Source: Planctomycetia bacterium (GTDB taxonomy: Bacteria > Planctomycetota > Planctomycetia > Pirellulales > JACPPG01). Taken from it: a DNA stretch of 64,000 nt. The stretch lies in assembly GCA_016191115.1 (NCBI GenBank), contig JACPPG010000060.1:1-64000 (forward strand). The letters are read 5' to 3'. Under the pieces are notes generated by a model. It made no database searches. It was given only the letters and a program-made list of their open reading frames with translations, and was not told where the DNA came from. Made by a program: the position numbers and the translations under genes. Positions 4,055 through 58,341 of the stretch are shown here, one piece after another. Numbering within the stretch: the stretch's first letter is position 1; each line of letters begins with the position of its first letter.

Positions 4055-4128
4055 GGCGCCTGCCGGAACCCCTGATGACGCCGATACCCCCAGAGGCATC
4101 CCGAAAGCAAGCCCAGGGGTTCAACCCC

Positions 4129-4276
4129 CAGGAGATTCAAGCTGGACGGCGGCGCACCGGCGGGAAAGTGGGACAGGCACCGAGACGCAACGTTGGTCTG
4201 AAAGGACTTGCGCTGTTTATGCTCGGAGCCAGTCCCATTTTCCCGCCTCGCCATTTTGAAAAACAGAATGGCCCTG
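4129..4276 (+). mobile_element. MITE-like element, family 1, copy A
   Basis: The copy has the family core: a GCGGGAAAGTGGGACAGG arm, the ACGTTGGTCTGAAAGGACTT centre, the SAGTCCCATTTTCCCGC-type arm, and a GAATGGCCCTG right end. The left end is shortened, with CAGG joined directly to AGATTCAAG. GTTCAACCCC occurs immediately before it (4119-4128) and immediately after it (4277-4286), a perfect 10-bp target-site duplication. It carries the TGGACGGC subtype also seen in copies F and G. It lies between the TetR promoter and the 3' end of the GH9 gene. Confidence 0.8.
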
Positions 4277-4303
4277 GTTCAACCCCTCGGTCTCGATGCC
4301 GGG

Positions 4304-12774: not shown

Positions 12775-12929
12775 CAGGGCCATTCTGTTTTTCAAAATGG
12801 CGAGGCGGGAAAATGGGACTGGCTCCGAGCATAAAGCGCCAGTCCTTTCAGACCAACGTTGCGTCTCGGTGCCTGTCCCACTTTCCCGCCGGTGCGCCGC
12901 CGGCAAGCTTGAATCTGTGAACGGCCCTG
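12775..12929 (-). mobile_element. MITE-like element, family 1, copy B
   Basis: Ends read CAGGGCCATTCTG and GTGAACGGCCCTG. The element is in reverse orientation relative to copies A, C, E and H. Direct repeats GAAGCTGAGG (12765-12774) and GAAGCTGCGG (12930-12939) flank it, 9 of 10 identical. It inserted 3 nt after the stop codon of the Tat-exported protein, and that stop is part of the left repeat. Confidence 0.82.
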
Positions 12930-13035: not shown

Positions 13036-13060
13036 CATGCCCACGGCGAGCGTGGGCATG
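13036..13060. repeat. Palindrome CATGCCCACG-gcgag-CGTGGGCATG
   Basis: A perfect 10-bp stem with 5-nt loop lies about 54 nt past the end of the minus-strand hydrolase. No T-run follows. Related CCCACG/CGTGGG hairpins occur at 40530-40551 and 50732-50754, so it is probably a dispersed repeat. The rest of 12940-13113 holds no visible gene. Confidence 0.6.
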
Positions 13061-13113
13061 GCACCTCATGGCGCCCGAGGGCACTAAAGCAACCTTTTAG
13101 CCCGGACGCGCGG

Positions 13114-14768: not shown

Positions 14769-14892
14769 CAGGAGAACTGCAAAGTCCTGGGAGAGGGGGT
14801 CAGGCACATTTTTCGGCCGAAAGTCCTTCGGAAGAATTGAAAACCGCGTGCGCCGAAAAATGAGCCAGACCCCGGACTTTGCCGTTCTCCTG
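14769..14892 (+). mobile_element. MITE-like element, family 2 (full copy)
   Basis: The 124-bp element has terminal inverted repeats CAGGAGAACTGCAAAGTCC (14769-14787) and GGACTTTGCCGTTCTCCTG (14874-14892), 18 of 19 matching. Inner arms at 14796-14817 and 14852-14873 match at 20 of 22 and contain GGTCAGGCACATTTTTCGG. It is flanked by GGGCTGCCGCG (14758-14768) and GGGCTGCGGCG (14893-14903). Like family 1 it begins CAGG and ends CCTG and has an 11-bp target duplication. Confidence 0.8.
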
Positions 14893-14903: not shown

Positions 14904-15060
14904 CAGGGCCGTTCACAGATTCAAGCTTGCCGGCGGCGCACCGGCGGGAAAGTGGGACAGGCACCGAGACGCAACGTTGGTCTGAAAGGACTTGCGCTGT
15001 TTATGCTCGTAGCCAGTCCCATTTTCCCGCCTCGCCATTTTGAAAAACAGAATGGCCGTG
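14904..15060 (+). mobile_element. MITE-like element, family 1, copy C
   Basis: It begins CAGGGCCGTTCACAG and ends GAATGGCCGTG, a one-base change from the usual GGCCCTG. It directly follows the family-2 element, so three copies of the same target word punctuate the pair: 14758-14768, 14893-14903 and 15060-15070. The rest of the 505-bp gap 14683-15187 shows no gene. Confidence 0.82.
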
Positions 15061-28711: not shown

Positions 28712-28806
28712 CCCGGCGTGGCAGGCGAGGGGACTTCCGTCCTCTCCCTCGCCGGCGCTTCGGGTTAACGCGCGATAAATGTCCAGCCGCATTGCCGACT
28801 TGCCCC

Positions 28807-28959
28807 CAGGGCCGTTCTTTTCAAAATGGCGAGGCGGGAAAATGGGACTGGCTCCGAGCATAGACAGCGCAAGTCCTTTCAGACCAACGTTGCGTCTCGG
28901 TGCCTGTCCCACTTTCCCGCCGGTGCGCCGCCGGCAAGCTTGAATCTGTGATGGCCCTG
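28807..28959 (-). mobile_element. MITE-like element, family 1, copy D
   Basis: This is the cleanest copy: 153 bp, CAGGGCC at one end and GGCCCTG at the other, flanked by a perfect 11-bp direct repeat CGACTTGCCCC at 28796-28806 and 28960-28970. A few bases are missing near the left end, which reads GTTCTTTTC. It lies in the 335-bp gap between mrdA and the hydrolase gene; nothing else was seen there. It supplies an in-frame upstream ATG to the hydrolase, which is not the real start. Confidence 0.88.
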
Positions 28960-29046
28960 CGACTTGCCCCTTGCCGCGTGCCCGGCGCGGCATTACGCTC
29001 GCAGATTACGGCGACTGTTTTCTTTGATCTTTTTCAGGAACGAACC

Positions 29047-31772: not shown

Positions 31773-31929
31773 CAGGGCCGTTCACAGATTCAAGCTTGCC
31801 GGCGGCGCACCGGCGGGAAAGTGGGACAGGCACCGAGACGCAACGTTGGTCTGAAAGGACTTGCGCTGATTATGCTCGGAGCCAGTCCCATTTTCCCGCC
31901 TCGCCATTTTGAAAAACAGAATGGCCTTG
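31773..31929 (+). mobile_element. MITE-like element, family 1, copy E (upstream of rpsJ)
   Basis: It begins CAGGGCCGTTCACAG and ends GAATGGCCTTG, 157 bp. Flanking repeats are TCGGTCGCCT (31763-31772) and TCGGTCGCCG (31930-31939), 9 of 10 identical. Sequence just beyond, TAGGGCCGTTGACAGCATCC, resembles the element's own left end and carries the -35 box of the ribosomal promoter. Confidence 0.85.
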
Positions 31930-45044: not shown

Positions 45045-45202
45045 CAGGGGTCATTCTGTTTTTCAAAATGGCGAGGCGGGAAAATGGGACTGGCTCCGAG
45101 CATAAACAGCGCAAGTCCTTTCAGACGAACGTTGCGTCTCGGTGCCTGTCCCACTTTCCCGCCGGTGCGCCGCCGTCCAGCTTGAATCTGTGAACGGCCC
45201 TG
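45045..45202 (-). mobile_element. MITE-like element, family 1, copy F (between map and rpmJ)
   Basis: Right end GAACGGCCCTG is intact; the left end reads CAGGGGTCATTCTG. It belongs to the GTCCAGC (TGGACGGC) subtype. Flanks are ambiguous: GCAGGGGTC before ATTCTG and GCAGGGGGTC after the element could be an imperfect target duplication. It interrupts the conserved ribosomal cluster and sits 10 nt from the -35 of a promoter for the distal part. Nothing else was found in the 359-bp gap. Confidence 0.78.
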
Positions 45203-51909: not shown

Positions 51910-52119
51910 CAGGGTCATTCTGTTTTTCAAAATGGCGAGGCGGGAAAATGGGACTGGCTCCGAGCATAAACAGCGCAAGTCCTTTCAGACCAACGTTGCG
52001 TCTCGGTGCCTGTCCCACTTTCCCGCCGGTGCGCCGCCGTCCAGCTTAAAATCCTTCCGAAGGACCTTCGGCCGAAAAATGTGCCTGTGCCCCTCTCCAA
52101 GGACTTTGCAGTTCTCCTG
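51910..52119 (-). mobile_element. Chimeric MITE-like element, family 1 joined to half of family 2 (copy G)
   Basis: Positions 51910-52046 are a family-1 copy (left end CAGGGTCATTCTG, TGGACGGC subtype) cut at GTCCAGCTT. It continues into the right half of a family-2 element (about 52047-52119) with CCGAAAAATGTGCCTG and the end GGACTTTGCAGTTCTCCTG. The whole is bracketed by GGTTAGCGGTT (51899-51909) and GGTTAGGGGTT (52120-52130), 10 of 11 identical, so the hybrid has one end from each family inside one target duplication. Confidence 0.8.
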
Positions 52120-57257: not shown

Positions 57258-57395
57258 CAGGGCCGTTCACAGATTCAAGCTTGCCGGCGGCGCACCGGCG
57301 GGAAAGTGGGACAGGCACCGAGACGCAACGTTGGTCTGAAAGGACTTGCGCTGTTTATGCTCGGAGCCAGTCCCATTTTCCCGCCTCGCCATTTT
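57258..57395 (+). mobile_element. MITE-like element, family 1, copy H (truncated, forms a gene end)
   Basis: It begins CAGGGCCGTTCACAG but stops at CGCCATTTT, lacking the last about 19 bases including GGCCCTG. The break joins directly to the coding sequence of the minus-strand DUF1559 gene. No target duplication can be seen, so an adjacent deletion is likely. Confidence 0.8.
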
Positions 57396-58341
57396 GGTGC
57401 GTCTCCACGTCGATCGTGTAGGCCACGGTGCGGACCGAGCCGTCGGCCATCGCGAAGTTGCAGCCGCCCGGATGGGCGCTGCCGAATAGGGTGCGGCTGC
57501 TCGTGCCGCTCGCATCCTGACGTGGCGGGCCATCGGCCGGCCAAGTGACGCGCGACGTGTCGTCGTTGTCGCCGTGGTACACGCTTTCCATGTCTCCCAG
57601 CCCGTCGCCGGTGCTGTAGCCGCCGGGGTTCATGTATTTCTCGCCGGCCAGGTAGGTGTTGGCCGTGCCGTCGAGAATGTCGCAGGGTCGAATGCTGCTC
57701 CGCTGAAACACCAGCCCGGTGGCGCTGCGTACCGCGCCCTGCGATTGCCACCACGCATCGCTATCGCCTTGGTCGAAGGTCGTTGGTTGCGTGAAGGGGC
57801 CAGGCCCGGGCGCATTGGGCTCGCCGTGATCGCCGGCATTCGCGGCATAGTCGCTCTTCGACACCAATGGCACCAAGGGGGCAAGCACCTCGGTGTTGGC
57901 GCATGGGTAAAGCTCGGCGGCGCGGCGGCTCGGGCAATAAAACATCGGTAGCACGGTGGCCAGGCGTGTTTCGTTCGGCACGCCGGCTGAGTGCAGCGCC
58001 GCCTGTTCCAGGTGCGGCAGGATCGAATACACCCACGAGCCGGGCTGGCGATCGCCGTCGCCGTGATCGGGGTACGGCGGCCACTTCCATCCCCAGCCGC
58101 TGGAGGGAAAGCACCCTTGTGTCTCGGCGCGCAGCACCAGCGCCAAGCTGATCTGGTGCAAATGGTTCTTGCACTCGCTTGTGCGGGCCGCCTCGCGCGC
58201 TTGCTGCACGGCGGGGAGGAGCAGCGCCACGAGGATGCCCACGATGAAGATGACTGTCAACAGCTCAATGAGCGTGAAAGCGGCGCGGCATCGCCCCGAA
58301 GCGCGGCGCAAAATCGGCGGTCGCCCGCTGAGCCCTTTCAT
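57355..58341 (-). CDS. DUF1559 pseudopilin-like protein with element-derived C-terminus
   Basis: 328 residues. The N-terminus is a type IV pilin-like methylation signal ([35 protein letters not shown]), followed by DUF1559 features including [11 protein letters not shown] and the C-terminal H-x9-DG-type motif in [18 protein letters not shown]. After TIDVETH the reading frame enters the truncated mobile element and ends 13 codons later ([13 protein letters not shown], stop inside the element). The family normally has a few more own residues here, so this copy is clipped. Function in planctomycetes is unknown. Confidence 0.85.

Follow-up and report, generated by a model that had tools for sequence, protein, structure and literature searches.

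The window, a 64-kb stretch of a planctomycete draft genome, contains eight copies of a short hairpin element that a sequence-only reading had described, and all eight were recovered at the places it named. Copy D, on which that reading focused, lies next to a gene for a PBP-like transpeptidase, whose best named matches are in Pirellulales and other planctomycete assemblies. Throughout, the outer part of the element, with its CAGGGCC...GGCCCTG ends, is referred to as the type-A shell and the inner part as the core. The features are as follows (window positions):

4129-4276, plus strand: copy A of the composite MITE, left terminus partly deleted
4119-4128 and 4277-4286: duplication flanking copy A, GTTCAACCCC, 10/10
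12775-12929, minus strand: copy B, composite MITE, duplication GAAGCTGAGG / GAAGCTGCGG (GAAGCTGMGG), 9/10
14769-14892, no strand assigned: type-B MITE beside copy C, ends CAGGAGAACTGCAAAGTCC
14904-15060, plus strand: copy C, composite MITE, duplication GGCTGCSGCG, 9/10
28807-28959, minus strand: copy D, composite MITE
28796-28806 and 28960-28970: duplication flanking copy D, CGACTTGCCCC, 11/11
28833-28921, minus strand: REPIN-like core of copy D, GGGACTGGCTCC (28844-28855) ... GGTGCCTGTCCC (28899-28910)
31773-31929, plus strand: copy E, composite MITE, duplication TCGGTCGCCT / TCGGTCGCCG (TCGGTCGCCK), 9/10
45045-45202, minus strand: copy F, composite MITE
51910-52119, minus strand: copy G, hybrid element, type-A end on the left, type-B end on the right
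57258-57396, plus strand: copy H, composite MITE, right end lost

The perfect repeats claimed for copies A (10 bp) and D (11 bp) and the 9/10 matches claimed for copies B, C and E were all found, while flanking duplications were looked for around copies F and H and none was found. Copy G is a special case, as its A-type sequence runs to about 52050 and the duplication attributed to it (GGTTAGCGGTT/GGTTAGGGGTT, 10/11) appears only when the right end is set at 52119, the terminus of a different MITE; two tests near the normal right end missed it. At the copy C locus the target word occurs three times: before the type-B MITE, between both elements, where the spacer is GGGCTGCGGCG, and after copy C. 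The core of copy D has the outer stem GGCGGGAAAAT/ACTTTCCCGCC. The statement that the window holds no transposase agrees with a search for three transposase families, as neither PF13808 nor PF01797 nor PF01609 gave a genome match on the window's contig; no Rfam family reached its gathering score in the window. A separate solo hairpin, GCATGCCCACGGCGAGCGTGGGCATGGCACC, is located at 13036-13065. Pieces of it of about 30 bp recur with 85-100% identity in three of four same-genus genomes, and words related to it form the core of MITEs in genome G024.

Copy number, target duplications and empty sites

A 21-mer from the core (up to 2 mismatches) occurs at 455 places in the 6.03 Mb draft genome of the host, 228 on one strand and 227 on the other, and its reversed control occurs at none. 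Individual copies were analyzed in a sample consisting of the window and 100 fetched stretches (1,956,531 bases, about one third of the genome), with copy E as the query. This yielded 178 BLAST pieces. Of these, 99 were near full length, 98 of them with flanks long enough for the analysis; the 80 pieces left out of the duplication count were truncated copies, edge copies and short cross matches. The 98 near-full copies start with CAGGGCC in 83 cases, end with GGCCCTG in 70 and measure 157 bp in 82, with a median identity of 97.5% to the consensus of those 82. The element, a true MITE, has an intact unit of 157 bp, no transposase gene, and the terminal inverted repeats CAGGGCC...GGCCCTG. The ends had been read correctly in the initial description, and its estimate of about 150 bp fell short. 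The whole unit folds as one hairpin, as had been proposed, with z = -4.9 as DNA and -7.6 as RNA (copy E). On host contigs C3, C4, C11, C15, C17, C22 and C26, an end falls in a MITE copy or no more than about 100 bp from one, which makes the element a probable cause of breaks in the draft assembly.

The sequence-only reading had argued for true transposition into different targets with duplications of 10-11 bp, and the flanks of the 98 copies bear this out. With the full 157-bp query, on which the signal depends (a query cut to 149 bp gives none), 42 copies have a perfect 10-bp duplication as compared to 0.42 expected from shuffled flanks, six further copies have a perfect 11-bp duplication (0.06 expected), and 60 match in at least 9 of 10 positions (0.60 expected). 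When these sixty 10-bp duplications were compared with each other, no clear common word was found.

Two of the insertions have an empty site. The joined flanks of 70 copies with duplications were searched, eight match elsewhere in the host sample, and three of the eight were aligned. For the copies at C2:2056 and C86:20349, the paralogue at C58:3961-4066 lacks the element and has a single copy of the target word, which deviates at one base. Both insertions occupy an identical position in one dispersed repeat, and their words, GGTATTGAGG and CCTCAATACC, are complements of each other; they may therefore be one event copied with the repeat, and the two empty sites may not be independent. A further candidate, C86:54849, was rejected, its match running into another copy of the element. 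The dispersed repeat is itself a 101-bp palindromic repeat with GGATCGACCGAAAAATAACTTC ends (C58:3961-4062, C5:27353 and C65:72363; three paired copies in the sample), and it was type-A MITEs inserted in copies of this repeat that yielded the empty site. Five joined-flank translations revealed no convincing disrupted gene. In four same-genus genomes, matches to 12.6 kb of the window are scattered over different contigs and so yield no orthologous empty site, and the full element has no match among the 15 of 19-31 candidates scored in each.

A second MITE family and the ISAs1 transposases

The host carries a second MITE family, type B, whose ends (CAGGAGAACNGCAAAGTCC) occur 85 times in the sample as compared to 4 times for the reversed control. 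They pair into 36 elements, 19 of which are 124 bp long; a perfect 10-bp duplication flanks 12 of the 36 (0.40 expected), and 23 have one of 10 or 11 bp with at most one mismatch. A test of whether the type-B core exists independently gave no good evidence for this, 2 of 47 loci lacking a B end.

The two families lie side by side far above chance. A comparison of 108 near-full A elements with 36 B elements yielded 11 A-B pairs separated by at most 40 bp (0.17 expected), and no A-A or B-B neighbours were found. These type-B MITEs are located in the window (14769-14892 and 52119) and on host contigs C17, C26, C65, C83 and C86. The spacer between A and B measures 9-12 bp in nine of the 11 pairs, and in eight of these nine the target word of one or both sides recurs in it, this word differing from site to site; the pair at the start of C65 has its left flank off the contig, which leaves this flank out of the comparison. 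A spacer that is a repeat of the site-specific target word points to insertion of the second element at the duplication of the first, and copy C of the window belongs to one such docked pair. In the ninth pair (C65:16951-17240) the spacer, CGGTGCACAG, is unrelated, but the outer flanks form a perfect 10-bp duplication, GTTCTTCTCA, which looks as though both elements had been transposed together through one A and one B end. Shorter hybrids with one end of each kind, six in number and 195-233 bp long, include copy G; four of the six have a duplication, and such hybrids may also stem from deletion within a tandem pair. One type of enzyme probably serves both families.

ISAs1 elements generally make duplications of 8-10 bp. 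The type-A MITE has CAGGGC-type ends and duplications of about 10 bp, and we infer that its non-autonomous shell is moved by an ISAs1-family DDE transposase that duplicates 10-11 bp. That the enzyme acts in trans, as had been proposed, is supported by the draft host genome, because it has only one PF13808 match, truncated at a contig edge, and no PF01609 match; the end of the truncated element (CAGGGCGATTGCG) shares only CAGGGC with the MITE. Among the matches listed, PF13808 occurs in 44 of 146 genomes of the order. Thirty ISAs1-family loci of the order were taken, two were too short, and 28 were used. Five contain elements of 1254-1286 bp that are bounded by CAGGGC ends and by exact 10-bp duplications, two have CACGGC ends with duplications of 9 or 10 bp, one (L203) has unrelated ends with 8 bp, and in 20 no end pair with a duplication was found. 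An insertion sequence with the same ends and duplications, which the sequence-only reading had envisaged, was thus found in part: ISAs1-family elements share the CAGGGC ends and the 10-bp duplications, and none of those inspected has the exact type-A ends.

The strongest tie to the ISAs1 family is an indirect one and runs through the type-B ends, for which an autonomous partner exists in another genome, G181. Its 1243-bp element is identical to the type-B MITE in the first 18 bases at both ends (18/18) and has an 11-bp duplication. The transposase gene of this element is split, and its longer part matches NF033564 (E = 1.1e-28) and PF13808 (E = 1.6e-14), which places it in the ISAs1 family. 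For type A, the draft-genome loci inspected, among the matches listed, hold no autonomous partner: none of 20 end pairs (31 PF13808 loci, looser test) matches the subterminal bases CAGGGCCRTTC N5 TTCAA, a difference from the ISAs1 elements compared that adds to the small size, lack of genes and REPIN-like core of the MITE, and none of 30 PF01609 loci of six genomes has type-A ends. In addition, genomes G015, G102, G110 and G138 bear such shells yet are absent among the 44 listed with PF13808. These gaps are what one would expect if the shell were moved by another DDE family with 10-11 bp duplications, such as an IS4-group enzyme. We regard this as unlikely, however, since the ISAs1 elements of the order likewise begin with CAGGGC and duplicate 10 bp, an ISAs1 element has ends that match type B, and the two MITE types use common insertion sites and in one case apparently moved jointly.

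The core and its exchange between shells

The core occurs as a separate module. Of 396 genomes of the order, 20 contain the pattern GGGACTGGCTCC...GGTGCCTGTCCC, namely the host (403 places) and 19 others, with none for the control; two mismatches in the conserved word belong to the search pattern, which by itself makes these mismatches constant. In the 90 bp to each side of the 29 modules read in other genomes, neither a type-A nor a type-B end occurs, whereas both host modules put through the same test have both ends. The outer stem varies between genomes and still pairs. In 27 modules from 18 genomes (two were dropped at contig edges), it pairs in 207 of 270 cells as compared to 152.9 +/- 7.0 in 2000 shuffles (highest 184), and the inner stem pairs in 102 of 135 as compared to 84.3 +/- 3.6 (highest 98), kinship being ignored in both counts. 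The core is a REPIN-like hairpin, an inverted doublet that forms one hairpin with conserved ends and a variable middle with compensatory changes, features also described for REPINs (PMC3116915); it differs from the REPINs described there in being enclosed by a DDE-type shell with target duplications. The earlier puzzle of REP-like arm words in an element with 10-11 bp duplications is resolved because two modules are nested, the ends and duplications being ISAs1-like and the REP-like arms forming a separate hairpin.

Shells related to type A enclose other cores in relatives. The shell-end pattern (up to 2 mismatches) occurs in 177 of the 396 genomes, mostly with one or two matches as in the control. 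It stands out in G015 (28), G181 (21), G138 (13), G110 (13), G102 (8) and G209 (7), with none for the control in each, and is less clear in G024 (8, control 4), G203 (7, control 1) and G360 (6, control 1). Of 46 loci in relatives, 26 could be delimited, partly by eye, as MITEs, which measure 103-276 bp; the remaining 20 resisted delimitation. A duplication with at most one mismatch is present in 12 of the 26, three of which (L305, L306 and L308) were delimited with help of the duplication itself, and absent in 14. In 24 of the 26, related ends surround other cores. When classed by short words of our own choosing, 11 cores are type 3 (AGCGAGG/AGCAAGGG), seven type 4 (GTGGGAGG/GGCGTCTC), five type 2 (GGTGCCATG) and one type 5 (GGGTGGCACGCCC), and two elements have none. 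The pairing centre lies a median of 0.5 nt from the centre of the element (the 26 MITEs of relatives and one window copy).

The same hairpins also occur outside shells. The type-3 word is found 115 times in G138, 165 in G015, 50 in G102, 5 in G024 and 0 in G110 (control 0), and in the loci read, G138 has it in shells, G024 has it alone, and G015 and G102 have it in both settings. In the host sample, 105 of 169 type-1 loci have both shell ends and 60 have one, as compared to none and two of 25 type-2 loci, and none and five of 20 type-3 loci; type-4 words give a weak signal (9, reversed control 2). A hairpin that stands alone in one genome is therefore the core in another, and vice versa. An exact scan of the named genomes for the junction of shell and core gave no locus among the matches listed. 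Two individual loci may be mentioned separately. At L317 (G102), positions 500-776, a shell with a type-3 core seemingly holds a further inserted hairpin (GGGCGCTAGCCCCGGTT...), possibly a third level of nesting, and at host C83:243637 a type-3 hairpin is fused to a type-A MITE whose right terminus is lost.

These distributions bear on whether the element is simply a plain MITE, in which the hairpin arms would be the subterminal part of a parent insertion sequence and nothing would be nested. The element is indeed one continuous hairpin, and nearly all host copies have the core, with only 10 of 331 motif matches lying outside MITE matches. However, the shell-free modules of other genomes have other stems, the host sample contains one clean solo core (C65:118979) along with a degenerate one, related shells carry other cores, and there is a coreless shell in the host sample (C92:54479), which is diverged and has no clear duplication. 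The solo and exchanged cores contradict the plain-MITE interpretation, which is largely refuted and to which we give little credence.

The inverted GGGACWGGCWCC words of the core are of a kind associated with HUH tyrosine transposases (RAYT/TIRYT). Y1 loci were inspected for such words, comprising all three of the host and 30 of 134 matches in the 19 other genomes. The word GGGACAGG occurs in two of these 33: as an inverted pair at host gene L063, which is flanked by inverted AAACGGGACAGGTCTAATT, and on one side of L274 (G020), where GGGACAGGCGC is present twice; it is absent from locus positions 900-2500 of the other 31. TIR repeats are the inverted repeats of TIRYT genes, some of which share the motif GGGGWSAS (PMC3733652, in the part available), and GGGGACAG fits this motif; in difference to those repeats, no such gene with exactly these ends is found among the 33 Y1 loci. 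Together, these matches make a link of the core to an HUH transposase, thin as it is, a moderate inference, and an HUH enzyme may have been its original mover. Transport of the whole element by a RAYT-type enzyme, with incidental flanking repeats, is very improbable despite the GGGACAGG word common to the core and the termini of L063 and the REPIN-like covariation, as precise 10-bp duplications far above chance and empty sites point to a DDE enzyme and IS200/IS605-type enzymes are not known to make a duplication.

A probable nested repeat and its meaning for Pirellulales

The element is most probably a REPIN-in-MITE composite moved in trans by an ISAs1-type transposase. Its core would lie close to the point about which the shell is symmetric and would have been amplified with it to about 450 copies. 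We favour capture of the core by the shell; the opposite order would have shell ends forming around a hairpin. MITEs, ISAs1 elements, REPINs and TIR repeats are each already known, and what is new is their combination with duplications, an empty site, core exchange and docking. REP dimers within palindromes were noted in 2013 in A. variabilis, T. roseum and H. neapolitanus (PMC3733652, section 7) and resemble the present case in the seating of a REP in a palindrome; the part of that section available to us reports no target duplications, transposase family or core exchange. Within the literature covered, mostly titles and abstracts with subscription journals scarcely represented, we found no report of ISAs1-type REPIN-in-MITE composites.

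More tentatively, and with somewhat less than even confidence, ISAs1 shells in Pirellulales can be viewed as a modular platform that serves as a landing pad for hairpins and allows docking and paired movement of a second MITE. The palindromic shell would be extruded as a hairpin, whose centre would be a landing pad for REPIN-type hairpins of whichever family is active, and a captured hairpin would then owe its amplification to a DDE enzyme that has no relation to its own enzyme. Through ISAs1-type insertion, a second MITE would dock precisely next to one already in place, with a further duplication of the same 10-11 bp (T-A-T-B-T), and docked pairs could then move together. Both systems are open to a plasmid assay, one of shell-end compatibility and one of docking beside a resident copy.

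As a rule, REPs and MITEs have been regarded as separate kinds of small repeats that depend on different movers. In the present element the two are nested, in about 450 copies within one genome, and the nested design recurs in relatives with other cores, a pattern that suggests repeated carriage of one kind of selfish DNA within another. This offers a testable route by which REPs could spread without a cognate RAYT, and, if true, the platform would account for the survival of REP families beyond that of their own transposases, as well as for the REP-in-palindrome cases of 2013.
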